A stretch of DNA of 64,000 nt from Selenomonas sp. Its GTDB lineage: Bacteria; Bacillota; Negativicutes; Selenomonadales; Selenomonadaceae. Position numbers and translations under genes: made by a program. The DNA is taken from assembly GCA_022482925.1 (NCBI GenBank), contig JAKVOG010000003.1, positions 62,001 to 126,000 on the forward strand, read 5' to 3'. Positions 5,243 to 41,126 of this stretch are shown in pieces; position 1 is the stretch's first letter, and every line of letters begins with the position of its first letter. The notes beneath the pieces were generated by a model, which was not told where the DNA came from, ran no database searches, and worked only from the letters and a program-made list of their open reading frames with translations.

Positions 5243-6632
5243 ATGACAAAAAAGATGACTCGACGTACTGCCTTGAAATATATTGGCGGCGGGGTGTTGG
5301 GGTTGGCAGGCATAACGACTTTGTTCAAGCGCAAAGATATCCTTGCGTTTCTGGATGCGGATCAAAGGGCGAGTCAGTCGAATCAGGGAGGGAGCGGAAC
5401 TGCAGTGGATACCCGGCTGTATCGTTCCAGCGGGCAGCAGCTTTCATTGCTCGGTTTTGGCGCTATGCGCTTTCCTACCCAGGTCATCAATGGCGAGAAA
5501 GTGATTGATGAGGAATTGTCGGAAAAGATGATCGACTACGCTTACCGCCATGGAGTGAATTATTATGATACGGCCTACATGTATCATAAGGGGAAATCAG
5601 AAGAGTTTCTTGGCAGGGTGCTGAAAAAGTATCCGCGTGACAGCTATATCCTGGCGGACAAGATGCCCGGCTTTGAGCTGGACAGTCCGGCAAGGGCTAA
5701 GGAAGGTATTTCAGGAACAGTTGGATCGCTGCGGGGTGGAGTACTTTGATAATTATTTCCTGCATTATCTGAATAAGCGTGAGGATTTTGACCGCTTCTA
5801 TCTGCAGCAGGGCGTATTAGACTACCTGAAGGAAGAGAAGGCCAGAGGCCGTATCCGGAATCTTGGCTTTTCCTATCATGGGGATGTTCCCTTCTTCGAG
5901 TATCTTATGGATAACTTTTCCTGGGACTGTACATTGATCCAGTTGAATTATCAGGATTGGAATGAAGAAACGGAGACACCTGAAGGCACCAGGATCATGG
6001 GCAGTCTTTATCGAAAGGCGGCAGAGAAAGGTGTTCCCTGTTTTGTGATGGAGCCTGTGCGCGGTGGTCGGCTGGCATCTTTGCCGGAATCCGCAGAAAA
6101 ACTGCTCAAGGAACGCGAGCCAAATCGCAGCATTGCTTCCTGGGCCATCCGGTTTGCTGCCTCACAGCCCGAGGTCGTGACGGTTTTGTCCGGAATGAGT
6201 GATTTGAATCAGGTGGTGGATAATATCAACACATTGTCTGATTTCAAGCCACTGTCCAAAACAGATCAGATGGTACTGCAAAAAGCGAATGGCAATGCAG
6301 TTGCCTTGCAGGCGGTGGCTTGTACCTATTGCCGTTATTGTATGCCCTGCCCTTATGGTGTGGATATTCCGGGTAACTTCAAGGTCTACAATGATTGGGC
6401 CGCTTCTTTGGGCTTTCTTGATGAAGACAGGAAACCAAGCGAGAAGCAAAAGGCGGAATTCCTGCGGCATTACCGTAACAGCATTGAAAAATCGGCGCGG
6501 GCAGATCATTGCATACGCTGCCGGAAATGTCTGGAGCTTTGCCCGCAGCATATCGATATCCCTGCAGAAATGCGGAAAATCGATACCATTGTCCAGGATT
6601 GCCTGAACGCATCGGGAAGGGGGAAGATCTGA
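5243..6632 (+). pseudogene. Tat-type aldo/keto reductase with C-terminal 4Fe-4S domain, one frameshift
   Basis: Aldo/keto reductase barrel fused to a ferredoxin-like tail; about 460 residues if the frame is restored. The N-terminus TRRTALKYIGGGVLG resembles a twin-arginine signal. Barrel marks are LGFGAMRFPT, DTAYMYHKGKSEEFLG (catalytic Asp/Tyr), and an oxidised-substrate Lys in LADK. The tail has two Cys groups: CTYCRYCMPCPYGVDIP and CIRCRKCLELCPQHIDIP. The frame breaks at about 5705, where GAAGGTATTT carries one extra G; removing it gives AKEVFQEQLDRCGVEYFDNYFLHYLN without a gap. Members reduce carbonyls with electrons from ferredoxin or NADPH. It is the first gene behind the MerR-type promoter. 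Confidence 0.82.
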
Positions 6633-6633
6633 T

Positions 6634-8099
6634 ATGCTGGTAAAGCTTCGCCTCCTTCTGGCCTGGGCTTCTTTTATCGCCATGACATGTCTTTTTCTGG
6701 GGCTGCTGGACCTTCCCGTTGCCAGAATACAGCTTTTTCCGGCACTTTTGGCAGCAAATTTCGTGGTTGTGCTGGGAATTCTCATTTCAGCTGTTCTGTT
6801 CGGTCGTGTCTACTGCTCGATGCTGTGCCCGTTAGGTATTTTTCAGGATATGATTTTGTGGCTGGCGCAGCGGAGAAAGAAAAACCGACAGAAGTTCCAT
6901 TATCGCAAAGAACGCCGCAGGCTGCGTTATGGGATCCTGCTGGTGACAGCGGCTGCCTTATTCAGCGGTCTGGCGCTTTTGCCTGTGCTGCTGGATCCCT
7001 ATAGTATTTATGGCCGTATGGTCACGCATCTTCTTACGCCAATCTGGCAGCAGTCTGTGAACGGCGCAGCGGCTCTGGGCGAGCAATATGAATTTTATGG
7101 TTTAGCCGGGTATGATTTCGTCTGGCAGGGAGCCGCAGCCTTGGGGCTGGCTCTCGTTTATTTCTTGTTCATAGGCATTGCAGCCTGGCGTTATGGCCGG
7201 ATTTATTGCAATACGGTTTGCCCAATCGGAACCTTACTGGGGACCATCAGCCGTTATTCTGTCTTTCGTATGCGTATCCAGCCGGAACGCTGCGTGGGCT
7301 GTGGCCTTTGTGAGAAAAGCTGCCGTTCTTCCTGTATTGATGTGAAGAACCGGAAAATCGATGCCAGCCGTTGTGTGGACTGCTTTTCCTGCATGGAAGT
7401 TTGTCCAAGGCAGGCCCTGCAGTTTACCGCCACTAAGCAGCCTTCAGTGAAAGAACCTGCCGTTATTCCTGAAGGGAAGGCTCCGGAATCTGTGTTCACG
7501 CGTCGTGAAATGATCGCAGCTTCGGTCATTGCCGCAGGAACTGCTGCCGGTGCCTTGATGAAAGCCGCCTCAGCAACAGGGGCAGCTATCGGCAGTGCCG
7601 ACAATAAGGCAGTTCTGCCGCCAGGTGCCGGTTCTCAGGCAGCGTTTTCAAATCGCTGCACAGCGTGTCACCTTTGTGTGGACCGCTGCCCCAATCAGGT
7701 ACTGACACCTGCAGTTATGGAGTATGGCCTGGGCGGGATTTTTCAACCGCATGCTGATTTTTCTCAGGGATATTGCGATTACAACTGCAACGTTTGTGGG
7801 GCAGTCTGTCCCAGCGGGGCGATCCCCAGCTTTCTCTGGCAGAAAAGCAGCATGTACAGATGGGAAAAGCTATTTACCATCGGAACAGTGCCTGATCCTG
7901 ACCGAAGGGGTAGAATGTGACGAACTGCGTCCTGCATTGCCCGACGGGAGCGATTACCCTGGAGGAAAAAGATGGCAGGAAACTGCCCAAAGTGAATCAT
8001 GCAAAATGCATCGGTTGTGGTTCCTGCACCTATCATTGTCCTGCTCAGCCTACGGCAATGCAGGTCATAGGGAGTGCCGAGCAAAAGCGGATCGTATGA
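6634..8099 (+). pseudogene. Membrane polyferredoxin, NapH-NapG-like fusion, three indels
   Basis: Starts 1 base after the reductase stop, so the two are one operon. The first 200 residues have several membrane helices with two NapH-type motifs ([12 protein letters not shown] and [12 protein letters not shown]). Ferredoxin clusters follow ([27 protein letters not shown]). Then comes an internal Tat-like stretch ([15 protein letters not shown]) and a NapG-like periplasmic part with further CxxCxxCxxxCP groups ([24 protein letters not shown]). The frame is lost near 7830 (missing base), near 7888 (missing base) and near 7922 (extra G); with these corrected the protein is about 488 residues. It would pass electrons from the quinone pool or ferredoxin to an exported partner, plausibly the reductase upstream. 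Confidence 0.8.
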
Positions 8100-8300
8100 G
8101 TTGATTCACGTGGACTGACTATCGGAAAGCCCCAGACTGCTGGAAAAATCGATTATATCAGTGTTATTCGAAAATCCTTGGGCAGGAAAAAGCGATGAAC
8201 TGACGAAATAATTATAGCAGACGACATTGCAACTTGAACATCAATGCGTGTATGCTTTTACTGGTGCAATGCGATAATCAGCAGGAAGAGGGGCATTATT

Positions 8301-9538
8301 TTGATCGTAGAAATCGTGACAACAGGCAGTGAACTACTGCTGGGTCAGATCGTCAATACGAATTCAGTTTATATGGCGGCAGAATTGAATAAACTGGGTT
8401 TTGATGTGGTTTACCAGACAACCGTCGGCGACAATCGCAGACGAATGAAGGAAACGATAGAGCATGCACTGAGCCGTGCGGATATGGTCATCACGTCTGG
8501 TGGCCTTGGACCGACTCAGGGCGACATCACCAAAGAGATCTGTGCAGAGATTTTCGGGCGGCAGCTTTCACTCAATGAGGAATGTGTCGGCCGGATGCGC
8601 CATTATTTTGAGGAGCATCAGTGGACGATGTCAGGGAATAACCTGCGTCAGGCCATGATTCCTGATGGAGCGCATATCTTCAAGAATTATGCGGGTACAG
8701 CACCTGGCATCGCAATGGAACAAGGGGATAAACTGATTGTCAATCTGCCGGGACCGCCTCATGAGATGAAAGATATGTTTGAGCGCAGCCTGAAGCCGTT
8801 TCTGAAGGAAAAATATGGGTTCCCGGCGGTGATCGTCTCACGTGTATTGAATACTTTCGGCATCGGTGAGTCCTCGCTGGAGACGGAGATCAAAGATCTG
8901 ATCCTCGCGCAGAAGAATCCAACGCTTGCCCTGCTGGTGCGCCCGACCGGGGTCATTCTCCGATTACGGCAAAAGCAGCGGATCGGACGGCGGCAGAACG
9001 GCTTATTGCTGATATGGAGACTGAAATCCGGTCCCGCGTCGGGCAGTATATCTATGCTGCAGATGATCAGGACATGGAGGCGGTTGTCGGGCAGGCCCTG
9101 GCAGCCAGGAAGCAGACCATTGCCTGTGCGGAGTCCTGCACTGGGGGCCTCCTGACCAGTCGTCTGACCGATGTTCCGGGCAGCTCTGCATACGTGATGG
9201 GATCGGTCGTGTCCTATACGAATGAGGTCAAGGTCGATTTTGTTGGTGTGGAAAAGAAGACATTGGAAGCGCATGGAGCGGTGTCGAGTGAGACCGCCTG
9301 CGAGATGGCCGAAGGCATAAGAAAGGCGATGCATACGGACTTCGGCGCTGGCATTACTGGTATTGCCGGCCCTGATGGCGGCACCTCGGAGAAACCGGTC
9401 GGGCTGGTGTACATTGCCGTTGCAGGTCCGGAGCACACCGAGGTAAAGAAGAATCTGTTCAGCGGTACGAGGAAGCAGATCAAATTCCAGTCAACCCAGA
9501 CGGCACTGGATATGCTGCGCCGGATGCTGGCTGAGTGA
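8301..9538 (+). pseudogene. cinA: CinA (competence/damage-inducible; nicotinamide-nucleotide amidase), one frameshift
   Basis: CinA has an N-terminal molybdopterin-binding-like (COG1058) domain, beginning IVEIVTTGSELLLGQIVNTNS with GGLGPTQGDITKE, and a C-terminal PncC deamidase domain with ACAESCTGGLLTSRLTDVPGSS and GAGITGIAGPDGG. It hydrolyses nicotinamide mononucleotide and handles damaged pyridine nucleotides. A TTG start at 8301 fits the family start and has GAAGAGGGG upstream; an ATG at 8244 would add an unrelated leader. One base is missing near 8962 (ATTCTCCGATTACG), which splits the two domains. cinA is normally intact and conserved, so this break is a strong candidate for sequencing error. 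Confidence 0.88.
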
Positions 9539-9540
9539 AC

Positions 9541-9598
9541 CATATATGAAAAATGCTGTTGCCTCTGCTAATGAGACAACAGCATTTTTTCATATATG
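9541..9598. terminator. Long bidirectional hairpin after cinA
   Basis: A 21-bp inverted repeat (CATATATGAAAAATGCTGTTG and its complement) around a 15-base loop, with A- and T-runs inside the stem so that it could stop transcription from either side. Confidence 0.8.
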
Positions 9599-9599
9599 G

Positions 9600-9745
9600 T
9601 CAAGGTCATTAGGAATCCTTTGCCGTCACTGATGCAGATCTCGATCTGGGGATTGTCCTGCATATACTGGCGGACTGCCTTGAAGGTTCCTGCACCAAAA
9701 TAGATTTTGCCATTGTAGGTAATCTCGAAGCTGATATGAAGATTC
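9600..9745 (-). pseudogene. Fragment of a pyridoxamine-5'-phosphate oxidase-like flavin protein
   Basis: The minus strand reads SFEITYNGKIYFGAGTFKAV, RQYMQDNPQIEICISD and GKGF. This lines up with the centre of the intact family member at 35386-35796 (EFQYEENGRFYFGTANTKAV then QQLLAHPKAAFTYMEPKGK). About 45 residues remain; both ends are lost and it runs into the terminator. A relic, not a gene. Confidence 0.5.
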
Positions 9746-9920
9746 CGTGCTGTTTGTGAAAAATATATGCATAGTGACAAAAGATGTGATATAATACAAA
9801 AATAAAATTTAGTGTAAAGTTGTAAACTCACGACACAAAAGAGAAAGAGGTGAGCATAGAAATAAAAGTCGCAAAATTTACAACAGACATAAAATTACAG
9901 CGAAAGAGTGAGGTTTTTGT
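9746..9920 (+). promoter_or_regulatory. Upstream region of the MFS gene with repeated TGTAAA motifs
   Basis: A TATAAT lies at 9790-9795. Downstream are two direct TGTAAA units (9813 and 9821, spaced 8 bp) and inverted partners TTTACA (9878) and TTACA (9895). These may be operator half-sites or simply reflect AT-rich sequence. No gene is seen here. Confidence 0.3.
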
Positions 9921-11237
9921 ATGGAAAATGGAATCGATTTAAAACGGCTGTATCGTAAACGTCAATTGCATGTGATCTTTCCCGTGTTTCTTGTTTCTGT
10001 GATTGCTTACCTGGATCGCGTGAATGTAGCTTACGCAGGGATGACGATGACAAAGGATCTGCCCTGGCTTACGCCGGAGATTTTTGGCGCAGGTGCCGGC
10101 ATCTTCTTTCTGGGGTATTTCTTCTTTGAAGTGCCAGGCGCACTTGTTGCGGCCCGGTTCAATGCCTGTACATGGATTGCCCGTATCATGTTCACCTGGG
10201 GATTGGTTTGCGGACTTATGGCATTCATGCAGTCACAGACGGAATTTTATGTTTATCGTTTCTTATTAGGCGCCTGTGAGGCGAGCCTGTATCCGGTCAT
10301 TTATGCGGTGCTGTTCCCAAAATGGTTTACGGCTGGGGAACGCGCCAAGGCGATATCGACGATGCTGACTTCTTTGTTGGTAGCGGCAATCCTTGGGGCC
10401 CCGACTGCGGGCTGGCTGCTGGAAATGAATCTTTTCGGCATGCATGGCTGGCAGACCTTGTTTGTGCTGGAAGCATTGCCGGCACTGGTCTTTACGCTGG
10501 TCTTCCTGTTCTGGGTTAAGGACCAGCCGGAGAAAGCAGCCTGGCTTACTGATGCGGAAAAAGCTTATCTGAAGGCTGCTTATGAAAAGGAACAGGCACA
10601 GATCACGCAGGTGCACAAGTATACGGTTATGCAGGCGTTGACCGATCGCAAGGTTTTGCGTCTTTGCCTCATTTATTTTTTGTGGATCGTTGGCTTTTGG
10701 GGCTTCAATTTCTGGATGCCGCAGGTACTCAAAGGGCTGTCTGGCTGGTCGGCTTCGCTGGTCGGTTTTGCGATTGCGATTCCTATGGGGATTGCTTTGA
10801 TTGCACAGGTGCTTTGGGGGAATTCTTCTTCACGAAGCGGGGAGAAGCGCTGGCATGTGGCACTGGCCATGTTTATAGGTGCCTTTGGTTTGGGAATCAC
10901 ACCATTTGTGAATGATCCAATCCTGAGCCTGGGCTGTATCTGCATTGCTGCTGTTGGTGTCTATGCCGCTATGGGAGTCTGGTGGACCGTTCCTACTACG
11001 TTCCTGAGCGGAGCAGCTGCGGCTGGCGCGACCGCATTAATCAATTCCATTGCGAATCTTGGCGGCTATTTCGGCCCTTACCTGCTGGGCGTGGTCAAGG
11101 GACAGACCGGGTCGTATGATTATGGCTATTTTGCCTTGGCTTCTTGTATGATCCTGGCGGGAGCTGTTATGCTTACACTGAAGAAAGAGTCGATTGAGAC
11201 CTGTGACGATGAAGCTGTAGTGACAGCAGATTCGTGA
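9921..11237 (+). CDS. MFS transporter, anion:cation symporter (ACS) type
   Basis: A 438-residue, 12-helix major facilitator with the layout of the ACS/phthalate permease family: cytosolic start LKRLYRKRQLHVIFPVF, helix 1 SVIAYLDRVNVAYA (the conserved YLDRVN motif), GYFFFEVPGALVAARF after helix 2, and RFLLGACEASLYPVI in helix 4. The family imports small organic acids such as tartrate, galactarate or aromatic acids; the substrate here cannot be named. It stands alone between two terminators. The frame is intact and the start follows GTGAGG. Confidence 0.88.
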   Translation: MENGIDLKRLYRKRQLHVIFPVFLVSVIAYLDRVNVAYAGMTMTKDLPWLTPEIFGAGAGIFFLGYFFFEVPGALVAARFNACTWIARIMFTWGLVCGLMAFMQSQTEFYVYRFLLGACEASLYPVIYAVLFPKWFTAGERAKAISTMLTSLLVAAILGAPTAGWLLEMNLFGMHGWQTLFVLEALPALVFTLVFLFWVKDQPEKAAWLTDAEKAYLKAAYEKEQAQITQVHKYTVMQALTDRKVLRLCLIYFLWIVGFWGFNFWMPQVLKGLSGWSASLVGFAIAIPMGIALIAQVLWGNSSSRSGEKRWHVALAMFIGAFGLGITPFVNDPILSLGCICIAAVGVYAAMGVWWTVPTTFLSGAAAAGATALINSIANLGGYFGPYLLGVVKGQTGSYDYGYFALASCMILAGAVMLTLKKESIETCDDEAVVTADS

Positions 11238-11308
11238 TAAGCCATGACCGGGGGGAATTATTCGAAAGATTCGTGTCTTGAACCATATAGTGTAATAGCA
11301 TAGAGTAG

Positions 11309-11349
11309 CAGAGTTCGGTATGTATAGCTGCGTATCGGACTCTGTTTTT
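11309..11349 (+). terminator. Terminator downstream of the MFS gene
   Basis: CAGAGTTCGGTA pairs with TATCGGACTCTG across a 12-base loop, with one mismatch, and is followed by TTTTT. It separates the transporter from the histidine kinase gene. Confidence 0.75.
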
Positions 11350-11435
11350 GCTTGATTGCCTTGAATAAATATTACGGATAGTATAGAATTTAGGCAATGA
11401 TTGGACGAATTATGATGAGACCAGGAGATGAGATT

Positions 11436-17173: not shown

Positions 17174-18038
17174 AAAATATATTATACGAGGATGTGGAGT
17201 ACATGGAAGACGTTGGAGAATATGTTGTCAGAGGCAATTTGATTTATACGGAAACGATGGATCGTTTTTCGGCCCTGGTTGATGGCTGCATTATGGTAAA
17301 GGATGGGCGTATCCAGGCAGTCGGGCCTTATCAGTCACTGGCCAATCAGGATATTCCGGTGCTGGATTACCGGGGGGCTTTGATTATACCTGGATTTGTC
17401 GATCTGCATGTACATGCACCGCAGTATGGTCAGATTGGTATAGGGATGGATGAAACACTGCTTCAGTGGCTGGAACAGTATACCTTTCCCGAGGAAAAAC
17501 AATTTGCTGATCCTGCAAAGGCAGCGGGAATCTACACGGATTTCATTCGTGAACTGGCAGACAACGGGACGACAGTGCTGCTGTCTTTGCAACGATACAT
17601 CCGGAAAGTACGGAACTATTATGCCGGCTCCTGAAGCAGGCCGGTATCAGGGCTTTTGTTGGCAAGGTGAATATGGATGCGAATGCACCGGCAGGATTGC
17701 ATGAGGAAACGAAGACCTCTTTAGAACAGACCCGACAATTCCTGCAGGCATGGAAGGATGATCCGATGGTAAAACCCATCCTGACCCCTCGCTTTGCACC
17801 ATCGGTCACGCGTGAATTATTGACCGGATTGGGGAAAATGGCCCAGGAATATCAGGTGCCTGTCCAGTCGCATCTGGCCGAGAATCAGGAGGAAGTCGCC
17901 TGGGTAGCCAGTTTGTTCCCCGAGCGTTCATCGTACTTGGACGTATATGCCTATTATCATCTGTTGTGGTAAACTAAAATTGTAACAGGGCAACCTAATA
18001 AGATATAATCAAATTATCTTAGAAAAGGAGAGTGCCTT

Positions 18039-18323
18039 ATGCCACAACATTATGATCCAGAGTTTAAAAAACAGATTGTACGGTTGCACTTAGAAGAAGG
18101 TCGTACCATCATCAGTCTGCAAAAAGAATATACAGTTTCAAAAGCCGCCATTTCTAAATGGGTAAAACAATTTCGCGATGAATGCCAGGACAATCCTAAA
18201 GCCCAATCTGACTATAATTACATGAAAGAAAATCTTCGGTTACGAAAGGAGCTTGAAGAGGCCCAGAAGGAAGTGCTTTTCCTAAAAAAAGCTGCAGCAT
18301 TCTTCGCGAAGGAGATCGATTAA
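18039..18323 (+). CDS. IS3-family OrfA (helix-turn-helix)
   Basis: A 94-residue DNA-binding subunit: HYDPEFKKQIVRLHLEEG, then VSKAAISKWVKQF (HTH), and a C-terminal leucine-zipper-like helix (ENLRLRKELEEAQKEVLFLKKAA). Near its end an A7 run (18284-18290) is a slippery site for -1 frameshifting, which would make the OrfAB transposase. Confidence 0.92.
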   Translation: MPQHYDPEFKKQIVRLHLEEGRTIISLQKEYTVSKAAISKWVKQFRDECQDNPKAQSDYNYMKENLRLRKELEEAQKEVLFLKKAAAFFAKEID

Positions 18324-18385
18324 CGGCTTATCGATTTATCCAAACATATCATCCACTATTTGGCTTACGGTGGTTATTCCGCCGG

Positions 18386-19183
18386 ATGAATATCTACCCT
18401 AACGCTTATTACAACTATCTTGCACAACGAAAGAAGGCGTATCAGCAACAAAAACACAGAATTTTGCAGAAGATTAAGGACATCTATCATACCTATAATG
18501 GCGTGCCAGGATATCGTACGATGCAGGTCTACCTAAGGCGTGAAGGAATAGTAATCAGCCGTCCAACCGTACATCGGTACATGAATCGAGAGCTTGGTCT
18601 GCTGGCTGTAGTTCGTCGGCGTAAGCCAAATTATTGCAAAGGACATGCTCATAAAGTATTTCCAAACCTATTGCAGCAAAATTTTACAGCAGAAGAGATC
18701 AACCATAAGTGGTGCACTGATTTTACGTATTTATTTCTTAGCAATGGCAGCAAGCGGTATAACTGTACGATTATTGACCTTCATGATCGCAGTGTAGTTG
18801 CAAGCATCACAGACAAAAAAATCACCAGCGACCTGGCAATTCGAACCTTGCAAAAGGCTATACAATCGCAGAAGCCGAAATGCCAGCAGCTTCTGCTGCA
18901 TAGTGATCAAGGAAGCCAGTACACATCTCAGGAGTTCATTGATTTCTGTGCATCACAGGGAATCCAGCAGAGCATGAGTAAGGCTGGCTATCCATACGAT
19001 AATGCCCCAATGGAACGTTATTATAATACCTTGAAAAATGAGCTTATAGAATTGCATTGCTACCATACAGATGAAGAGCTCACAAGTTCCATTGAAGAAT
19101 TTGCCTATGGTTGGTACAACCATGGTAGGCCACATTCATATAATGATTATCGAACTCCTTATGAAGCTCGATGTCATTCTTAA
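18386..19183 (+). CDS. IS3-family OrfB (DDE integrase part)
   Basis: The rve-type catalytic part: WCTDFTYLFLSNG (first Asp), LLLHSDQGSQYTS (second Asp) and NAPMERYYNTLKNE (Glu). The listed start is the first ATG. The true protein is probably OrfAB: after a -1 shift at the A7 run (18284-18290) the frame reads KKSCSILREGDRLTAYRFIQTYHPLFGLRW and joins this part without a stop. The coding sequence is intact. Confidence 0.92.
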   Translation: MNIYPNAYYNYLAQRKKAYQQQKHRILQKIKDIYHTYNGVPGYRTMQVYLRREGIVISRPTVHRYMNRELGLLAVVRRRKPNYCKGHAHKVFPNLLQQNFTAEEINHKWCTDFTYLFLSNGSKRYNCTIIDLHDRSVVASITDKKITSDLAIRTLQKAIQSQKPKCQQLLLHSDQGSQYTSQEFIDFCASQGIQQSMSKAGYPYDNAPMERYYNTLKNELIELHCYHTDEELTSSIEEFAYGWYNHGRPHSYNDYRTPYEARCHS

Positions 19184-19942
19184 AAATGTAGGTTGTACTG
19201 TTACAAAAATGCTTGACCACAACATCTGTTGGGCGATACGCCTACCTTGATGGCTCATTGTATCTATCTTTCGCCAGAAGATGTTCAGCGTATGGCCGCG
19301 TGTGATGTCTATGCAGTTCATTGCCCAGACTCAAATCTCAATCTGCGCAGCGGGCTCATGCCGGTTCGAAAGCTATTGAAGGCAGGTGTGCGTGTAGGCT
19401 TGGGGTCGGATATTGGTGCAGGCAACAGCCTGTTCATGCCGGATGAGGTCGTCCGGGCGATAGAGATATCCAAGGTCTATGCGATGTTGCATCCAGAGGA
19501 CGAACCACTGCATTTATCGGAAGCTTTTTACCTTGCCACTAAAGGAGGAGGATGTTTCTTCGGCAGGACGGGCAGCCTCGAGCCTGGCTATGCGGCAGAT
19601 TTCCTGGTGGTGGATGTGCCGGAGCATCAGCGGGAGCGGCATACAGGATTTCCTGGAGACTGCCATCAATATGCCAGGGGACTTGCAGCTCGCGGTATAT
19701 CGTTGGATACCACTGATTGACAACCGATAGAACCCGCTCATATAAGCCATGCTTTTGCAGCAGGCGCAACTCGGAGGCATAGTTTTGCCAAAACGAGAAA
19801 AATAATTGCAAGGTATCTTCATGCCTTGTAATTTTTTTTTGCAATAAACGTTCCGTATACTGGTCGAAAAGTTTCTTCAGGTATTGTTGGAGCAGATCAT
19901 CTGTTGTGGTCAAGCATTTTTGTAACAGTACAACCTACATTT

Positions 19943-20740
19943 TTAAGAATGACATCGAGCTTCATAAGGAGTTCGATAATCATTATATGAATGTGGCCTA
20001 CCATGGTTGTACCAACCATAGGCAAATTCTTCAATGGAACTTGTGAGCTCTTCATCTGTATGGTAGCAATGCAATTCTATAAGCTCATTTTTCAAGGTAT
20101 TATAATAACGTTCCATTGGGGCATTATCGTATGGATAGCCAGCCTTACTCATGCTCTGCTGGATTCCCTGTGATGCACAGAAATCAATGAACTCCTGAGA
20201 TGTGTACTGGCTTCCTTGATCACTATGCAGCAGAAGCTGCTGGCATTTCGGCTTCTGCGATTGTATAGCCTTTTGCAAGGTTCGAATTGCCAGGTCGCTG
20301 GTGATTTTTTTGTCTGTGATGCTTGCAACTACACTACGATCATGAAGGTCAATAATCGTACAGTTATACCGCTTGCTGCCATTGCTAAGAAATAAATACG
20401 TAAAATCAGTGCACCACTTATGGTTGATCTCTTCTGCTGTAAAATTTTGCTGCAATAGGTTTGGAAATACTTTATGAGCATGTCCTTTGCAATAATTTGG
20501 CTTACGCCGACGAACTACAGCCAGCAGACCAAGCTCTCGATTCATGTACCGATGTACGGTTGGACGGCTGATTACTATTCCTTCACGCCTTAGGTAGACC
20601 TGCATCGTACGATATCCTGGCACGCCATTATAGGTATGATAGATGTCCTTAATCTTCTGCAAAATTCTGTGTTTTTGTTGCTGATACGCCTTCTTTCGTT
20701 GTGCAAGATAGTTGTAATAAGCGTTAGGGTAGATATTCAT
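19943..20740 (-). CDS. IS3-family OrfB (copy 2)
   Basis: The same 265-residue protein as 18386-19183 with the complete DDE set (WCTDFTY, LLHSDQGSQY, NAPMERYYNTLKNE). Intact and expected to be made as OrfAB by -1 frameshifting. Confidence 0.92.
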   Translation of the reverse strand: MNIYPNAYYNYLAQRKKAYQQQKHRILQKIKDIYHTYNGVPGYRTMQVYLRREGIVISRPTVHRYMNRELGLLAVVRRRKPNYCKGHAHKVFPNLLQQNFTAEEINHKWCTDFTYLFLSNGSKRYNCTIIDLHDRSVVASITDKKITSDLAIRTLQKAIQSQKPKCQQLLLHSDQGSQYTSQEFIDFCASQGIQQSMSKAGYPYDNAPMERYYNTLKNELIELHCYHTDEELTSSIEEFAYGWYNHGRPHSYNDYRTPYEARCHS

Positions 20741-20802
20741 CCGGCGGAATAACCACCGTAAGCCAAATAGTGGATGATATGTTTGGATAAATCGATAAGC
20801 CG

Positions 20803-21087
20803 TTAATCGATCTCCTTCGCGAAGAATGCTGCAGCTTTTTTTAGGAAAAGCACTTCCTTCTGGGCCTCTTCAAGCTCCTTTCGTAACCGAAGATTTTCTT
20901 TCATGTAATTATAGTCAGATTGGGCTTTAGGATTGTCCTGGCATTCATCGCGAAATTGTTTTACCCATTTAGAAATGGCGGCTTTTGAAACTGTATATTC
21001 TTTTTGCAGACTGATGATGGTACGACCTTCTTCTAAGTGCAACCGTACAATCTGTTTTTTAAACTCTGGATCATAATGTTGTGGCAT
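20803..21087 (-). CDS. IS3-family OrfA (copy 2)
   Basis: The same 94-residue protein as 18039-18323: helix-turn-helix followed by a leucine-zipper-like helix and a slippery A7 run near the end. Confidence 0.92.
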   Translation of the reverse strand: MPQHYDPEFKKQIVRLHLEEGRTIISLQKEYTVSKAAISKWVKQFRDECQDNPKAQSDYNYMKENLRLRKELEEAQKEVLFLKKAAAFFAKEID

Positions 21088-33063: not shown

Positions 33064-33080
33064 GGGGTTCTGAATATCGA

Positions 33081-34682: not shown

Positions 34683-34700
34683 GGCATGGTTTCCTTCAGG

Positions 34701-34728: not shown

Positions 34729-34782
34729 TTCAGGGGAGCTGCTGCGTGTTATCATGAGATTGTGTTCAGGAGGTGAAGAAAC

Positions 34783-34794
34783 TTAGATGTCTAA
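34783..34794. promoter_or_regulatory. MarR operator overlapping its own start codon
   Basis: TTAGATGTCTAA is a near-perfect 12-bp palindrome whose centre ATG is the marR start codon. The perfect form TTAGATATCTAA recurs at 35281, 42 bases after marR. Confidence 0.65.
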
Positions 34795-35239
34795 TAAAAA
34801 ACAGATTGAGCCGCGGAATATGATCGCGCTCATGAGCAGGATTACCGAACTGACAAACCGGATGATTGTGGATGAACTCCATGCGCATGGAATCGAAGGA
34901 ATTGTGCCATCACATGGTGGCATACTGACCCGCTTGTTCACGGGGAAGCAGTATACGATGCAGGAAATGGCGGCGGCCATCCATCGCACGAGGCCAACCC
35001 TGACAGTTCTTGTCAGAAAGCTTGAAGCACAGGGCTATGTGCTTCGGGAAAAAAGCAAAGCAGATTCCCGGGTGACATTCCTGCGGATCACAGAGAAAGG
35101 CCGGGCACTGGAGCCGGTATTCCGTGAAATCTCGGATCAGATGAACGCGCTTGTCTATCAGGGACTGTCGGATGATGAGGCACAGCGGATGTCCGGACAA
35201 CTGCGGCAGATGCTGGAACGTCTGGCAGGGGCCGTTTGA
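34787..35239 (+). CDS. MarR-family transcriptional regulator
   Basis: A 150-residue winged-helix dimer: N-terminal dimer helix (RNMIALMSRITELTNRMIVDEL), YTMQEMAAAIHRTRPTLTVLVRKLEAQGYV (recognition helix) and the wing EKSKADSRVTFLRITEKGRAL with the conserved Asp-x-Arg. It begins at ATG 34787 after AGGAGG. Palindromes at its start and just downstream point to self-control and control of the flavin protein gene that follows. Ligand unknown. Confidence 0.9.
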   Translation: MSNKKQIEPRNMIALMSRITELTNRMIVDELHAHGIEGIVPSHGGILTRLFTGKQYTMQEMAAAIHRTRPTLTVLVRKLEAQGYVLREKSKADSRVTFLRITEKGRALEPVFREISDQMNALVYQGLSDDEAQRMSGQLRQMLERLAGAV

Positions 35240-35280
35240 CGGAAATGGTACAACCCAGTGGGGCTGTGCCAGGTTAAAAC

Positions 35281-35292
35281 TTAGATATCTAA
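35281..35292. promoter_or_regulatory. Second MarR-type operator
   Basis: Perfect palindrome TTAGATATCTAA, preceded by AAAC and followed by AAAC, 94 bases before the flavin protein start. Shares the sequence of the site over the marR start codon. Confidence 0.65.
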
Positions 35293-35385
35293 ACAAAATG
35301 GATCATGATGGCTCAGGCACAGTGATCTGTGAACTGAACTCAATGATAGAATGATTTCATGGATTATGTAAAGGGGAATTGCACG

Positions 35386-35796
35386 ATGAAAAAAGAAGAA
35401 TTTATGTCGTATCTGCCGAATGGTACTTATGGTATTCTCTCAACGGTGGCTGAAGATGGCCGTCCGGAGGGGCGTGGCTGGGAGTTTCAGTATGAGGAGA
35501 ATGGTCGCTTCTATTTCGGTACAGCCAACACTAAAGCCGTTTACCAGCAGCTGCTGGCGCATCCGAAGGCAGCATTCACCTATATGGAGCCGAAAGGAAA
35601 GTATACGGTCCGTATCAATGGTGAAGTACATTTCGTGACGGATGCCGCCAAGAAAGCCGCCTGCTGGGAAAAGATTGACCCGCTGGTGCAGAAGATGTAT
35701 CAGAGCGTCGAAAATCCGATCTTTGAGATCCTTTATCTGGATGCCTGCAACTGCAAACTGGCCAAAGGATTCAACCCGACTGAAGCAATGGAGTAA
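35386..35796 (+). CDS. Pyridoxamine-5'-phosphate oxidase-family flavin protein
   Basis: A 136-residue split-barrel flavoprotein: GTYGILSTVAEDGRPEGRGWEF (first strands), NGRFYFGTANTKAVYQQLLAHPKAAFTYMEPKGKYTVRINGEVHFV (FMN-binding core), and a Cys-rich end (LDACNCKLAKGF). Small members bind FMN or F420 and reduce unknown small molecules; true vitamin B6 synthesis is unlikely at this length. The ATG at 35386 follows AGGGG. Probably under MarR control. Confidence 0.85.
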   Translation: MKKEEFMSYLPNGTYGILSTVAEDGRPEGRGWEFQYEENGRFYFGTANTKAVYQQLLAHPKAAFTYMEPKGKYTVRINGEVHFVTDAAKKAACWEKIDPLVQKMYQSVENPIFEILYLDACNCKLAKGFNPTEAME

Positions 35797-35815
35797 TTGT
35801 TTCTGGAACAATACA

Positions 35816-35875
35816 AGAAAATCCCGCAGATTCCCTCGTAGGAGGTGGATCTGCGGGATTTTTAGGTCAGGTGGT
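35816..35875. repeat. Duplicated terminator, copy 1 (before the toxin-antitoxin pair)
   Basis: AAAATCCCGCAGAT pairs with ATCTGCGGGATTTT across TCCCTCGTAGGAGGTGG, followed by T-rich sequence. The same loop and stem, then AG[G/A]TCAGG, recur at 36612-36672. Beyond the stem the sequence still resembles the 3' end of the LysR gene at 36660, so the copy includes a remnant of that gene end. Confidence 0.8.
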
Positions 35876-35907
35876 GCTCAACTGAGCAGTTTTTGCAGTA
35901 TGAAGCA

Positions 35908-36285
35908 TTATTGCTGGTGAGCAAGAATCCAATCCCGAAGGCCATCACAATCCAGAACATCAGTTGCTACTTGCAACACAACTTTAATCAAAGCGTCCTG
36001 TGTATAATTTACTTGGATGCCATTGACAGCCAGGAATACGAGCATGGCATGTGCGCCCAGACGTTTGTTGCCATCTACGAATGGATGATTACAAATCAAT
36101 CCGAAGCCAAGCCTGGCTGCTTTTGATTCAACGTCAGGATATTGGCTGATGCCAGCAAATTCCTGCCATGGCGCAGCCAGAGCAGATTCCAGCAGTCCTT
36201 CATCGCGTAGTTCTGTGGAGCCACCACTGGTAGCAATCAGCGCAGCATGCAGGTGCAGTATCTGTTGCTTAGTCAGTTTGATCAT
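35908..36285 (-). CDS. doc: Doc-type (Fic-domain) toxin
   Basis: A 125-residue death-on-curing protein. The active loop is NHPFVDGNKRLGAHAML (Fic motif HxFx[D/N]GNKR). Other Doc marks are LTKQQILHLHAALIATSGG at the start and LRDEGLLESALAAPWQ. Doc phosphorylates elongation factor Tu and stops translation. Its start overlaps the antitoxin stop (ATGA), so the two are translationally coupled. No missing residue is seen. Confidence 0.92.
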   Translation of the reverse strand: MIKLTKQQILHLHAALIATSGGSTELRDEGLLESALAAPWQEFAGISQYPDVESKAARLGFGLICNHPFVDGNKRLGAHAMLVFLAVNGIQVNYTQDALIKVVLQVATDVLDCDGLRDWILAHQQ

Positions 36286-36521
36286 TTAGCCAGAACCTCA
36301 TAAGCTTTTTGATTCCTGGTCATTAGTTGCTGGGAGATGTGATCGATTACTGAATCGTCAGCGATATCTTCACGATCTCCACGGATTTCTGTCAGAATAT
36401 ACTTGGGAGCATTGTTCTTCATAATGATGATAGCGCCTTTTGAATCTGCCAGTTTGGCTACCTTAGAAAAGTTTTGATTCGCTTCGGTCATAGAGACCAT
36501 TGCGCTGGTATCTATTAACAT
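36282..36521 (-). CDS. phd: Phd/YefM-type antitoxin
   Basis: 79 residues: SAMVSMTEANQNFSKVAKLADSKGAIIIMKNNAPKYILTEI is the Phd/YefM DNA-binding fold, followed by a flexible tail that would neutralise the toxin. The ATG at 36521 is preferred because AAAGGCGGTGATTGAT precedes it and the longer frame is hydrophobic nonsense. First gene of the pair, as in phd-doc. Confidence 0.9.
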   Translation of the reverse strand: MLIDTSAMVSMTEANQNFSKVAKLADSKGAIIIMKNNAPKYILTEIRGDREDIADDSVIDHISQQLMTRNQKAYEVLAK

Positions 36522-36611
36522 ATCAATCACCGCCTTTTTCTTTATTGTAGCATATAAAATAGGATAAATATATGCTAGAAATAAATAAAGTGCCGTAGTC
36601 ATTTCTTAATA

Positions 36612-36672
36612 GGAAAAAATGCAGATTCCCTCGTAGAAGGTGGATCTGCGGGACTTTTTTTAGATCAGGCGG
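36612..36672. repeat. Duplicated terminator, copy 2 (after the toxin-antitoxin pair)
   Basis: GCAGATTCCCTCGTAGAAGG then TGGATCTGCGGGACTTTTTTT. Differs from copy 1 (35816) at a handful of positions. It forms the terminator of the leftward LysR gene, whose stop lies inside the repeat at 36660. Confidence 0.8.
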
Positions 36673-37548
36673 GCGATGAGTTTGTCGCGAAAGAGCTGGG
36701 GCACTTTTGAAAGGCGGTGCTTCTGCTTCCAGATCAGATAGACATGAGTGGAAAGCTGCGGCTCCAGCGGTCGAAAGCAGAAGGGGCTGTCAGGGCCGGT
36801 ATAAACCAGCTGGTCCAGGCAAAGCGCATATCCAAGGTATTCTTTTACCATGAGGGAAGCATTGTAGAGCAGATTATAAGTGGCAACGATGTTCAGGTTC
36901 TCAGGCTCTTTCTGCAGCCAGTGATAGAGCTCGTGAGTGGCAAGCGATTGCTGGGATATCATGAGAGGGATGTCCCAGACATCCTGATTCTGGATGGTGG
37001 TTTTCTGGCTAAGGGGAGCATCTTTGCGCATGAGCAGTCCCCAGCGGTCCGGATTCGGGAGTTCCAGCGAGTGGTATTGCTTGATGTCTGATGGTTCGAC
37101 CAGTATGCCGAAATCCAGCAGTCCCTTTTCAAGCCGTTCAATGACATCATCGGCTTTGCCACTGAACAGATGGTAATGGATTTGCGGGTAATCGGCCTGC
37201 AGTTCTTTGGCCAGTTTTGCCAGGGGCTGCAAGGCTGGTGTTTCACCGCTGCCGATATAGATATCACCGGCAATCACATCCCCAATCTGCTGGAAACTCC
37301 TGCTGAGTCCGTTCGGTCAAAGCGGTGATTTCCTCGGCACGTTGGCGCAGGAGCCTGCCGGCGTCTGTGAGCACAGTCTTGCGTTTCCCGCGCTCCAGCA
37401 GTTTGATGCCTAGTTCGTCTTCAAGCTCGGCCAGCTGTCGGGAGAGTGTCGGCTGTGTGATGCACAGGGCCTCAGCGGCCCGTGAGATATTTTCTTCCCG
37501 GGCTACGGCTAAAAAATAGGTTAAGACGCGGAATTCCATGATATTCAT
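36660..37548 (-). pseudogene. LysR-family regulator, one frameshift
   Basis: DNA-binding part: MEFRVLTYFLAVAREENISRAAEALCITQPTLSRQLAELEDELGIKLLERGKRKTVLTDAGRLL. The frame is lost at about 37292, where TTTCCAGCAG should be TTTCAGCAG; then it continues QQIGDVIAGDIYIGSGETPAL through a complete effector domain to the stop at 36660. The gene is divergent from the exported hydrolase at 37881, its likely target. Start is ATG 37548 or 37539. Confidence 0.85.
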
Positions 37549-37560
37549 CAATCCTTTCAC

Positions 37561-37880
37561 TTAGAAACGGTTATGGGTATATCTTTCGTCACATGGGGTG
37601 AATATCCTGCTTAAAACGATGCTTTCCAGGCATCGTTTTTCTTTTGTGGGTATTCTTATGGAAGATTCGATATAGTGCAAGTAAAAAACAGGATTTATTA
37701 TACTTAGAAGGTATAATAAATGATTTTAAATAAGCATTAGACATATTATATGCATTCGGCTAAAATAAAATCAACCTTCAGGGATAGAAGAGACAAGGGG
37801 AAATGCTGACGCATCGAAGTGAAGGCAGTATTGGAATCCGTAAGTATGTGAAACAGAAGTAAGGAAAGAGGAATTTGAAG
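37561..37880 (+). promoter_or_regulatory. 320-base divergent region between LysR and the exported hydrolase
   Basis: No gene is seen. It holds a hairpin AAACGATGC / GCATCGTTT followed by TTCTTTT (37614-37640), possibly an attenuator or small-RNA terminator, and a dyad TTTATTATAC / GTATAATAAA with a 7-base centre (37694-37720) that contains a TATAAT-like -10. The dyad is a candidate LysR operator. Confidence 0.45.
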
Positions 37881-39045
37881 ATGAAAAAATTTAAAAGCAA
37901 GAAATCCATGCTGGCAGCAGCGCTGCTCATTGGGACGATGTCATTTGGCTTTATGGGGATGAATGCAACTGAGGCAGCAACGCCGGCCAAGGTTTTGGCG
38001 CAGGAGTCACAGATGAAGCATTCGTCTATCCAGGAACTCGACAATGATACGCGGGTGTTCAAGGTAGATAAGAACATCGAGGCAAAGAATGTCCGCTTCG
38101 ATAACCGCTATGGCTTTACCGTGGCCGGCCACATGTATCTGCCGAAGAACTTCGATAACAAGAAACAGTATAAGGCGGTTGTGATCAGCGGTCCGTTTGG
38201 CGCGGTCAAGGAGCAGTCCTCAGGGCTCTATGCACAGGAAATGGCTAAGAACGGATTCGTTGCGGTGGCCTTTGATCCGTCGACGACAGGCGAGAGCAGC
38301 GGGACACGCCGTAACATGGGCTCGCCGGAAATCTTTACGGAAGATTTCAGTGCAGCGGTGGATTTTGTTTCGAATCTGAAGTTTGTCAATCCGAATCAGA
38401 TTGGGGCAATCGGCATCTGTGGACTTTCAGGCATGGCATTGACGGCAACGGCAAATGATACACGTATCAAGGCTGTGGCGACCTCGGCGATGTATGATAT
38501 GTCCGAGAGCATCAGCGATCACTACAAAGGTGCGTATTATACGCCGGAGCAGCGTGAAATCGTCAAACAGCATTTGGCAAAGATGCGTGATGAAGAAGCC
38601 AAGACCGGACAGTCCATCCGTGGCTTCCATGAACTGGGCGTAGATGCAAATGGCAGCGTGCAGACCGGTGATACGTTGTTCCCGGATAAGATGCCGGCTG
38701 ATGCAGGCCAGGTTGCCAAGGATTTCTATGATTATTATATTGGCCGGGCCTTTCCATCCACGGGCTATCAATTCCAATAAGTCAGCCTGGGATTCCACGA
38801 CACCGTATGGTTTCTTCAATTTCAATCTGATGGAGAATATCGATCAGATCAGCCCGCGGCCAACTTTGCTGATCACTGGTGAGAAAGCTCATTCCAAGTA
38901 TTTTGCGGATGAAGTCTATGCAAAGCTGAAATCCCCGAAACAGGAAATTGTCGTACCGGGTGCCAGCCACACGGACCTGTACGATCAGATGGACAAGATT
39001 CCGTTTGATAAACTGGTGGCTTTTTTCCAGGATAATCTCAAATAA
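37881..39045 (+). pseudogene. Exported alpha/beta hydrolase, one frameshift
   Basis: Signal peptide KKFKSKKSMLAAALLIGTMSFGFMGMNATEAA. Hydrolase body: AGHMYLPKNFDNKKQYKAVVISGPFGAVKEQ, AFDPSTTGESSGTRRNMGSPEIFTEDFSAAVDFVSNL, ICGLSGMALTATA (nucleophile elbow with Ser), and GASHTDLYDQM (His). Similar to the YcjY/acetyl-xylan-esterase-like group. An extra C near 38754 (TTTCCATCC for TTTCATCC) breaks the frame; corrected, it reads GRAFHPRAINSNKSAWDSTTPYGFFNFNLMENID. About 387 residues when intact. Probably activated by the divergent LysR protein. Confidence 0.85.
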
Positions 39046-39128
39046 TTATTCAACTTAATGTGCACATGCCCCTGCTATTCAGTGTAGCGGGGGCATTGTT
39101 GTAAAAAATCGAAATACCTGCTGAATAT

Positions 39129-39161
39129 CCTTGACTTGGAGTTAAGTCAAGGGTATACGAT
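39129..39161 (+). promoter_or_regulatory. MerR-type promoter of the DUF4405-reductase operon
   Basis: A near-perfect dyad with arms CCTTGACTT (39129-39137) and AAGTCAAGG (39144-39152). The -35 TTGACT (39131) and -10 TACGAT (39156) are 19 bp apart. It shares TTGACTTGGAGT with the element at 59824 and the design with 5161. Confidence 0.78.
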
Positions 39162-39196
39162 GGGAAATAGAGAACGGCATTGAAGGAGGAGAGAGA

Positions 39197-39887
39197 ATGA
39201 AACGATTTGTTTTGGATATAGCGATGTTGATCGTGATCGTGGTCACGATGGGGTTCCATTTTCTGCCGCAGATGTGGCATGAGGTGCTGGGACTGATTCT
39301 GCTGGCCGGGGTATGCTGGCATCTGGGATTGAATCATCGGTGGTTCGGCAGCATGCTTCGCGGTAAATGGAACCGGCTGCGGCTGTTGCAGACTGCGTTG
39401 GGGTGGCTGCTGGTCGTATGTTTCTTGATTACGATCGGTGACCGGCATCATTATTTCGAATTACGTGTTCAAGGATCTGTGGGTGGGGGTTCCCCTGCAT
39501 CGCAGCATCTTCGTGCATCAGCTGCATATTGCCAGTGCGTATCTTATGGTGATCCTGGGTGGCATGCATCTGGGGATGCATTGGCCGGCACTTTGGCAGC
39601 GCATCCGGAGATTACCGGTCATCGGGCAGTTGGACCATCATCCATCCGTACGTTTCTGGGTGCTGGTGCTTATCGGCTGGGCTGGTGTACTGGCCTCGCG
39701 TCTGGATCATGTTGGTGACCGTCTGGTCATGAAGCATATCTTCGGCACGGCAGCATCTCATTTGCCGAATGGTGTGTACTATCTGCTGCTGTTGTGTGTG
39801 TTCGGGTTATATGCAACCGGCTTTTATTATCTGCAGAAAAGATTGCAGCGTCGGGCAATGGAACGGATGGGAGGCAGAAACAAATGA
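39197..39887 (+). pseudogene. DUF4405-like membrane protein with haem-type histidines, one frameshift
   Basis: Four or five helices. His-rich helix motifs WHEVLGLILLAGVCWHLGLNH and FVHQLHIASAYLMVILGGMHLGMHW resemble the bis-His b-type haem sites of small cytochrome b-like proteins. An extra C near 39436 (ACGATCGGTG for ACGATGGTG) breaks the frame; corrected, it reads CFLITMVTGIIISNYVFKDLWVG. About 230 residues. Its stop overlaps the next gene (ATGA), so it is coupled to the Tat-type reductase, for which it could be the membrane electron donor. Confidence 0.78.
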
Positions 39888-41126
39888 AGAGACGGTCTTT
39901 TATCAAAGGATTAGGGATAGGCGCTGTAGGTGCGGCACTCGGCACTTATGATTTTGACAGCCTGCTCAACCGTGGGAAATGAGTCTGGCCCGGCTAAGGG
40001 ATCTGGTCAGTCAGCTGTTGCTGAAATGATCTATCGGGAGATTCCCCATAGCGGGCAGAAAGTCAGCGCGATATCGCTGGGCGTAGGGTCCCTGCATGAG
40101 TCATCGGATGCTGAGGTGGAGCGGATCGTAGACTATGCATTGGGCAGTGGCATCAATCTGGTTGATATGATCATGCCGACCGCCGGGCCGGCTGAAGCCA
40201 TCGGGCGGGGGCATGAAGAGCCGCCGCAAGGACGTGATTGCACAGCTCCATATTGGGTTCCTATTATAATATGGCTGGTGTCACGGATCGGACGCGGAAT
40301 CTGCAGGAGACGAAAAAAGGGATTTGAGGAGCAGCTGCGGCTGTTTGGCAGCGGTGACAGTGATATCGGGATGATCCATTATGTCGATCAGAATGATGAT
40401 TATGATGCCATGCTCAATAATGGTCTGCTGGATTATGCGGTCAAACTCAAAGAGGCTGGGACAATCCGTTACATTGGTTTTTCCTCACATTCGGTTGAGA
40501 TCAGCCAGCGTTTCCTTGCAACCGGGCTGATTGATGTGTTTATGTTCAGTCTGAACCCTGCATATGACTTCGAGAATACGTCAGAAGGGCTGCGGGTTGC
40601 TGCGGACCGGGCGGCTTTGTATGCGGAGGCAGAAAAACGCGGGGCGGCGATTACGGTCATGAAATGCTATGGTGGCGGGCAGCTGCTGTCGGCGACGGAC
40701 AGTCCTTTTGGACAGGCGATGTCGACTGCTCAGTGTGTGCAGTACTGCCTGGACTGGCCAGCGGTTATTTCCTGCGTGGCCGGGGTAAAGAATATGAAGG
40801 AAATGCAATCTTCGCTGGAGTATCTGGCAGTAAGTCCGACTGACCGCGAGTATCGTGCGGTGCTCAGTTCCGGGGCTGCCGCCATGGAAGGTGTCTGCAT
40901 TTACTGTAACCACTGCCTGCCGTGCCCGGTAGGCATCAATATCGGTGATGTCAACAAGTATTATGATCTGGCAAAGAACGGCGACGCGCTGGCCAGAGAT
41001 CATTATTCATCGCTCAGCCGCTGGGCTTCTGACTGCAATGAATGCGGCGAATGTGAGCCACGCTGCCCATTCCACGTGAAGGTGCGTGACCGCATGAAAG
41101 AGATCGCGGCCTATATGGGGAAATGA
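39884..41126 (+). pseudogene. Tat-exported aldo/keto reductase with 4Fe-4S tail, four single-base insertions
   Basis: Starts KRRSFIKGLGIGAVGAALG, a clear twin-arginine signal. Four +1 insertions interrupt it: A-run 39977-39979, G-run 40207-40211, C at 40260-40261 and A at 40322. Removing them gives a smooth family sequence, for example AIGRGMKSRRKDVIAQLHIGF, then YYNMAGVTDRTRNLQETKKGFEEQLR. The barrel continues IGMIHYVDQNDDY, IRYIGFSSHS and VMKCYGGG. The tail has CIYCNHCLPCPVGINIGDVNKYYDLA and CNECGECEPRCPFHVKV, two cluster sites. A paralogue of 5243-6632. Confidence 0.82.

Follow-up and report, generated by a model that had tools for sequence, protein, structure and literature searches.

This locus raises the question of whether two iron-sulfur (Fe-S) proteins with the fold of aldo/keto reductases (AKRs), each with a leader for twin-arginine translocation (Tat) and each encoded next to a membrane redox protein, belong to one exported system. 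Both are in a stretch of 64,000 nucleotides from Selenomonas sp. (assembly GCA_022482925.1, contig JAKVOG010000003.1, positions 62,001 to 126,000), which we call the window. At 5243-8099 of the window, AKR1 (a Tat-type leader, an AKR barrel, and a 2[4Fe-4S] tail) is followed by a polyferredoxin that is a fusion of NapH and NapG. At 39197-41126, a DUF4405 cytochrome-like protein is followed by AKR2, the second Fe-S protein with a Tat leader. An earlier note on this DNA described the two pairs as one carbonyl reduction system with exchangeable electron donors. We think the better explanation, and a reasonably probable one, is that these are two separate and dedicated modules for extracytoplasmic electron transfer.

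The first module consists of:

5243..5749, + strand: AKR1, N-terminal part, with the Tat-type leader and the start of the AKR barrel (PF00248, 58.7 bits)
5637..6632, + strand: AKR1, remainder, with the AKR barrel and the C-terminal 2[4Fe-4S] ferredoxin domain (PF00248, 66.3 bits; Fer4_8/9/17)
6634..7920, + strand: NapH-NapG fusion, main part, with the membrane region, two inner clusters, an internal RR ahead of a weakly hydrophobic segment, and the first outer cluster motifs
7917..8099, + strand: NapH-NapG fusion, C-terminal clusters, in another reading frame

The leader of AKR1 can be read directly at 5243 (MTKKMTRRTALKYIGGG). The two parts of AKR1 match residues 1-151 and 114-457 of the intact orthologue from Mitsuokella multacida (51% in both cases, by tblastn), and just 1 base separates the end of AKR1 from the start of the fusion. 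The front of the fusion matches NapH at 79.2 bits, which is far below the cutoff of 213, and the matches of its back to NapG and NapF are below cutoff as well. The NapH layout of cysteines and the NapG-type clusters are found in the NapH-NapG fusions, and all 10 fusions that we examined have the RR and the weakly hydrophobic segment (segment score of 0.61-1.52, versus 1.96-2.76 for the first transmembrane segment).

We took AKR frames from fetched loci, flagged leaders by a rule of twin arginines plus hydrophobicity, and considered a frame to be adjacent if the fusion was within 2.6 kb, or DUF4405 was within 1.6 kb, on the same strand. Each set of identical AKR cores contributed a single count, and frames that matched over fewer than 190 residues were excluded. 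The fusion is beside 20 of 22 AKR1 frames with a Tat leader (14 of 16 loci) but only 1 of 115 leaderless relatives (1/78 in one group and 0/37 in the other). The association of leader and fusion is significant (Fisher p = 9e-21 by frame or 7e-16 by locus, with kinship not corrected for). So the AKR1 pairing recurs across genomes, in support of the earlier note. For 61/78 and 29/37 of the leaderless loci, at least 1.4 kb was available on both sides. Six frames from the leaderless groups met a loose RR rule (3/79 and 3/38); by eye these have no leaders, and we counted them as leaderless. One frame whose leader looks real (in L101) was kept apart from the leaderless groups, and it has no fusion. 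We also left 12 frames that are nearest to AKR1 and have no visible leader out of the 22-versus-115 comparison. Ten of these lack the fusion, and the two with it are the window copy, whose N-terminal part is broken off, and L116, which is at a contig edge.

Among 189 genomes from the family to which the window's genome and M. multacida belong, the fusion (E <= 1e-50) is present in five: the window's own, M. multacida (G031), G188, G202, and G200. AKR1 adjoins it in all five, and the AKR1 of G200 lacks most of its barrel. The pair is also found in records named as uncultured Acidaminococcus and Veillonellaceae bacterium, and in metagenome-assembled genomes (MAGs) of Tidjanibacter (where the N-terminus of AKR1 is cut by the contig end), Victivallaceae, and Verrucomicrobia (where the fusion is in two pieces). 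Six records named "Bacterium isolate RGIG..." have the fusion followed by two AKR1 genes, whose leaders run into a lipobox.

Two variants of this arrangement may be of interest. In L120, L122, L124, L125, L126, and L130, which are from ruminant-gut MAGs, two tandem AKRs that resemble Tat lipoproteins lie behind one NapH-NapG fusion. In G043 (L102:2735-4853), a NapH-type fusion adjoins a Tat-led protein that resembles DUF362. Judging by such neighbors, NapH-type fusions may also work with exported proteins other than AKRs.

The second module consists of:

39197..39718, + strand: DUF4405 haem-type membrane protein, N-terminal part, with homology in frame up to residue 82
39438..39887, + strand: DUF4405 protein, C-terminal part (PF14358, 27.7 bits, cutoff 26.7; 64% to G080)
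39884..39982, + strand: AKR2, Tat leader (MKRRSFIKGLGIGAVGAALG; TIGR01409, 21.7 bits), with a frame break afterwards
39930..41126, + strand: AKR2, body, with an AKR-like barrel and a C-terminal 2[4Fe-4S] domain (PF00248, 44.1 bits; Fer4_8, Fer4_17)

The N-terminal part of the DUF4405 protein is 56% to residues 1-82 of its counterpart in genome G080 (tblastn), and this piece alone has no Pfam match. PF14358 is above its cutoff in both the window's C-terminal part and the G080 protein, and the histidine positions recur. The excerpted text of PMC11334425 reports haem b binding by another DUF4405 protein. The stop codon of DUF4405 overlaps the start codon of AKR2 (ATGA). The AKR2 leader is 70% to residues 1-27 of the G080 AKR2. 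It is above the cutoff of 16.7 bits for TIGR01409 and slightly below cutoff for PF10518 (22.2 versus 22.7). In the body of AKR2, homology begins at 40020, the sequence is garbled near 40205-40320, and the whole is 70% to the G080 AKR2, which has the AKR domain itself (PF00248, 49.8 bits).

This pairing is conserved as well. As the earlier note stated, each reductase sits in an operon with a membrane redox protein. Close homologs of AKR2 (57-70% identity, E <= 1e-50) were found in the window genome and in three others of the 189. All six loci with AKR2 of the exported clade (the window, G080, G099, G200, G205, and G036) have DUF4405 beside it. In G200 and G205, the start of AKR2 is beside DUF4405 and the rest is cut off by contig ends, and in G036, a 63-residue remnant of AKR2 is beside DUF4405. 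The gene order in G080 is an FMN_red-type Tat lipoprotein, DUF4405, AKR2, and CMD, and in G099, AKR2 precedes DUF4405. DUF4405 itself is widespread (134/189 genomes, E <= 1e-8) and is mostly found without AKR2 of the exported clade. We also note that the CMD-like gene after AKR2 in G080 (L193:2878-3630) has an extra C-terminal half that looks cupin-like by eye.

The donors do not appear to be exchangeable. DUF4405 was not found up to 1.6 kb from any of the 22 AKR1 frames with leaders, and the fusion was not found beside any AKR2 frame, so we rejected the idea of a shared donor for both proteins. Similarly, both modules occur together in just two of the family's genomes (the window's own and G200), which does not support a single system. 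Five of the 189 genomes have the fusion, six have an exported-clade AKR2 locus, and two have both. The co-occurrence has p = 0.008 if we include the window genome, which was selected because it has both modules, and p = 0.10 if we do not; one co-occurrence outside the window genome is unremarkable. In G036, a leaderless AKR1-type gene (L097) is 0.6 kb from DUF4405 and next to the AKR2 remnant, and in M. multacida, a DUF4405 gene lies about 2.3 kb past the fusion.

AKR1 and AKR2 both have the Fe-S tails and leaders that the earlier note described, but "paralogous" is a loose term for them, as they are about 30% identical and belong to two subfamilies. In our tree, the AKR2 proteins with Tat leaders are beside their leaderless kin (99*), 21 of 22 rows for AKR1 with Tat leaders group together (support of 82), and the leader label requires three changes. 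(The tree was built by a quick method that gave a long-branch warning, with a random 26/75 and 14/29 of the leaderless rows.) From this grouping and these changes, Tat leaders appear to have arisen more than once, separately in the two subfamilies.

The link between the two modules is a common guild of exported redox genes. In M. multacida, this guild comprises CMD, flavodoxin, AKR1, the fusion, an FMN_red lipoprotein, and, at some distance, DUF4405, and in G188, it comprises AKR1, the fusion, an FMN_red lipoprotein, and CMD. In G035 and G199, DUF4405 is accompanied by an exported flavodoxin and an FMN_red lipoprotein, with no AKR in the stretch that was fetched. The window genome has an exported flavodoxin and an FMN_red lipoprotein on contig C10. 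Taken together, the gene neighborhoods point to two dedicated exported modules, each conserved, and not to one system with exchangeable donors.

Are the modules functional in this organism? As the earlier note had reported for both copies, the genes are frameshifted: all four module genes are broken in the window, with at least one break each. They might be dead genes and not the victims of sequencing errors. The breaks in 4/4 genes would fit this, as would the AKR2 remnant in G036, the truncated AKR1 barrel in G200, and several transposase-like frames inside the window. However, unrelated neighbors are likewise broken, namely cinA, a LysR regulator, and an exported hydrolase (8244-9538, 36660-37560, and 37875-39045), which suggests either indel errors in the assembly or a wide decay of genes. 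The source genome (G000) is a 2.94 Mb draft that is 88.96% complete, versus at least 99% for 15 of 21 genomes from the same genus, and this suggests indel errors. Because these neighbors are broken too, and given the completeness of the other genomes, assembly errors are the likelier cause. Gene death seems unlikely to us, although it would not be a great surprise. AKR1 and the fusion are both intact in M. multacida DSM 20544.

To consider what the proteins might do, we placed the active-site columns via matches to Kv-beta and other AKRs; we assume that the Asp-Tyr-Lys-His tetrad and the Kv-beta-type Asn have their usual catalytic and cofactor roles. All 21 rows for AKR1 with Tat leaders (at least 250 aligned residues) have the tetrad and the Asn of the cofactor motif. 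So the carbonyl reduction that the earlier note proposed fits AKR1, but it does not fit AKR2, which lacks the Tyr and the Lys. In the exported clade of AKR2 (4/4 rows, one of which is the garbled window copy), the Asp and the His are kept, the Tyr and the Lys are absent, and the Asn is replaced by Ser or Ala. The leaderless kin of AKR2 at 33% identity or above (29/29) also keep the Asp and the His, lack the Tyr, and have Ser or Ala in place of the Asn, and their Lys is replaced by His. (These kin were grouped by identity, not by the state of these residues; 8 further rows that are under 27% identical keep the Tyr and the Lys and are other AKRs.) The eight cysteines of the clusters are conserved in nearly all rows. 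Because the Tyr, the Lys, and the cofactor-site Asn are lost, AKR2 appears to be an Fe-S protein with the AKR fold and should not be called an AKR enzyme.

Among the PDB entries that our sequence searches listed (26, 6, and 16 distinct sequences, where two of the queries were the same protein), none has a name that identifies it as an Fe-S AKR. Nor was there one among the listed matches from structure searches, and the absence of a match does not exclude one. The structure model of AKR1 was based on 9 sequences and has a mean predicted local distance difference test score of 75.9; in the cluster loop (358-368), the score is under 50.

AKR2 might not be an enzyme at all: its barrel might be an AKR fold that has lost its catalytic role and now acts as an electron relay or a sensor, with the ferredoxin tail doing the work. 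The loss of the Tyr and the Lys and the replacement of the Asn, in both the exported clade and its leaderless kin, would be consistent with this. Also, the fold matches of AKR1 include SmbA, which is a non-enzymatic AKR-like barrel that binds nucleotides. But an Asp and one His are still conserved, and all 29 kin have a His where the Lys was lost, which suggests a site that has been refitted and not one that has decayed. We doubt that AKR2 lacks enzymatic activity. A bolder idea, which we put forward quite tentatively, is that the two subfamilies were exported independently and were wired to different donors on the quinol side, so that both would be membrane-driven reductases that do not use nicotinamide, with the Asp/His/His of AKR2 forming a new metal or cofactor site.

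We propose that in module 1, electrons from menaquinol would pass to the outer [4Fe-4S] clusters of the fusion and then to the C-terminal 2[4Fe-4S] domain of AKR1. The NapH half of the fusion would be inserted by the Sec system, and its NapG half would be exported by Tat, via the internal RR and the weakly hydrophobic segment. AKR1, which keeps the tetrad and would be exported by Tat, may then reduce a carbonyl-type compound outside the cytoplasm. The hard step would be to pass electrons from one-electron clusters to a hydride enzyme. This might be achieved with tightly bound NADP that is exported within the folded protein, or with another cofactor in the barrel. In module 2, electrons, most likely also from menaquinol, would pass via the haem of the putative b-type cytochrome (DUF4405) to exported AKR2, which has the same kind of ferredoxin tail. 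Since AKR2 has lost the Tyr, the Lys, and the cofactor Asn, it likely performs different chemistry or acts as a relay.

Electrons might flow through module 1 in the other direction. AKR1 would then be an exported dehydrogenase for a sugar or an alcohol on the outer side of the membrane. The electrons would reach the quinone pool via the clusters of AKR1 and NapHG, and tightly bound NADP, exported with the protein by Tat, might assist. AKR chemistry is reversible, AKR1 has kept the tetrad and the Asn of the cofactor site, and the top structural matches of the AKR1 model include L-galactose dehydrogenases. There is a precedent for the cofactor: the glucose-fructose oxidoreductase of Zymomonas carries tightly bound NADP out via Tat. 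However, NapGH is described as a quinol dehydrogenase that gives electrons outward (excerpts of PMC5449189), and the MerR-type promoters (see below) suggest a stress response rather than the use of sugars. So we consider this direction improbable.

Export of the reductases, which our explanation assumes, is consistent with several lines of evidence. A twin-arginine leader with a hydrophobic stretch was found in 24 AKR1 or AKR2 frames, including the window leaders as read directly. In the stretch that we scanned, 22/24 of the flagged leaders have a motif of the RR-x-hydrophobic-x-K/R type and 11/24 have a lipobox. The genome encodes TatC (220.9 bits, at G000:C5), with a UbiA-family enzyme 1.6 kb away. 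Tat signal models gave a mixed result, as the window's AKR2 leader matches TIGR01409 and its AKR1 leader has no match. The leaders recur in relatives, as do the pairings. We find it very hard to believe that the leaders are false and that both reductases are cytoplasmic, ferredoxin-linked AKRs: the AKR1 leader without a Tat-model match and the leaderless state of most relatives would fit this, but the motif and lipobox counts, the association of leader and fusion, and the presence of TatC all argue otherwise.

Several observations weigh against our explanation with two dedicated modules. AKRs normally work by hydride transfer from NADPH. To our knowledge, NADPH does not occur in the periplasm, and we know of no flavin-free route from [4Fe-4S] clusters to nicotinamide. 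UbiA alone is no proof of menaquinone. As for the pairing of AKR1 with the fusion, two loci with leaders lack it (L127, which starts at a contig edge, and L123, with no fusion nearby), the fusion of L118 is in two pieces, and 6 of the 14 positive loci are closely alike records of ruminant-gut MAGs and hence are not independent. The broken state of all four genes in the window also counts against it. Finally, we scanned 11 promoter stretches in other genomes and found a MerR-type site in just one of them, before AKR2 of G099 (5/6 at -35). Because of this, joint control by MerR looks like a local feature and not a conserved one.

Within this genome, both operons are preceded by MerR-type promoters with spacers of 19 bp, as the earlier note had stated:

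4300..5151, + strand: member of the DJ-1/PfpI family whose N-terminus resembles a signal sequence, encoded immediately before the AKR1 promoter (PF01965, 63.6 bits)
5161..5191, + strand: MerR-type promoter before AKR1, TTGACT-N19-TACAAT, with a dyad
39131..39161, + strand: MerR-type promoter before DUF4405-AKR2, TTGACT-N19-TACGAT

The DJ-1/PfpI-family protein is a possible associate of module 1. YraA is also of the DJ-1/PfpI type. Across the 2.94 Mb of the genome, only the two module promoters match the pattern TTGACTTNNAGTTAANTYNA exactly. About 0.003 exact matches would be expected at even base composition, and the reversed pattern has none. Another two sites have one mismatch, and these precede a Flavodoxin_4 gene and a Tat-led gene that resembles metallophosphoesterases (named by eye). 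The genome also encodes a MerR protein (G000:C3, near 209.5 kb) with a Cys at position 52, as counted from the "MTIKEV" start; Cys52 is named as a conserved position for AdhR in the excerpts of PMC4776306. Expression of both operons is probably induced by this AdhR-like protein, perhaps in response to stress from electrophiles. The AdhR/NmlR carbonyl-stress regulon of Bacillus subtilis, as far as it is covered in those excerpts, is similar in having a MerR-type regulator with Cys52 and a promoter with a 19-bp spacer, and the wider guild here includes CMD and DJ-1/PfpI-type genes. It differs in that the products here carry export signals, and control by the MerR protein of this genome is only putative.

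Three other MerR-type genes or sites caught our attention. A looser motif at 59824 precedes a MatE-family efflux gene (59888-61309), and no matching -10 was found in our scan. In G023 (L101:5536-6873), an AKR of the leaderless type with a separately gained Tat leader lies directly after a MerR gene, and its tail has no CxxCxxC. In G041 (L091:8520-10899), leaderless genes of the AKR2 and AKR1 types adjoin each other, and a nearby MerR gene has a MerR-type site of its own.

How do the modules compare to known systems? The leaderless AKRs with a C-terminal 2[4Fe-4S] domain, which we take to be COG1453-type, have the same barrel and the eight cluster cysteines, but they have no leader, and the fusion-like gene is rarely beside them (see above). 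Reductive dehalogenases and similar Tat-exported reductases are fed by NapGH-like proteins, and they share the Tat leader, the 2[4Fe-4S] tail, and the membrane donor. Here, however, an AKR barrel takes the place of the corrinoid domain. We rejected the idea that these are reductive dehalogenases, as the barrel is PF00248 and the Pfam matches include no dehalogenase domain. The NapH-NapG fusion of MLMS-1 (PMC5449189, in excerpt) and NapGH have the NapH inner clusters, the RR with a weakly hydrophobic segment, and the NapG outer clusters; the difference is that the partner here is an Fe-S AKR with a Tat leader, and no AKR partner is named in the excerpts of that paper. The DUF4405 cytochromes of flavinylation clusters (excerpts of PMC11334425) share the domain and the recurring histidines with module 2, and exported Flavodoxin_4 and FMN_red proteins are encoded nearby in the relatives of module 2. 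In our case, the partner is AKR2, and the sole match to ApbE is on another contig (C6). We considered flavinylation since DUF4405, Flavodoxin_4, and FMN_red recur together, but it is not supported, as [ST]GA[ST] was found in 0/7 of the flavodoxin-fold proteins that we scanned.

The earlier note's statement that no description of such a pair was known still stands: we found no description of a Tat-exported Fe-S AKR module in the open-access PMC literature, in a search that was in part weak on spelling variants. AKRs are known from textbooks as cytosolic NADPH enzymes. Intact pairs in distant bacteria hint at a little-explored route by which respiratory electrons reach reductases outside the cytoplasm. 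If this is correct, then an exported AKR with a polyferredoxin that resembles quinol dehydrogenases would be a new class of terminal reductase in anaerobes, many of which are known from gut or rumen records. This raises the question of how one-electron carriers could power an AKR barrel in the absence of free NADPH, and the intact AKR1-NapHG pair of M. multacida DSM 20544 makes it testable. New chemistry may also be found in the AKR2 branch, where the active site looks refitted.

We also noticed a few other features in the window. Another protein with a twin-arginine leader (MQRREFILGG) is encoded at 54071-55186 and has a domain with the metallo-beta-lactamase fold. An amidohydrolase gene (17194-19720) is apparently interrupted by a pair of transposase-like frames (18039-19183), and a second such pair is nearby on the opposite strand (19943-21087); the two are alike over the 70 residues that we compared. 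Finally, two tandem transposase frames of 457 amino acids each are on the minus strand (56626-57999 and 58213-59586). These are also alike over the 70 residues compared, and the first of them has a DDE_5 domain.

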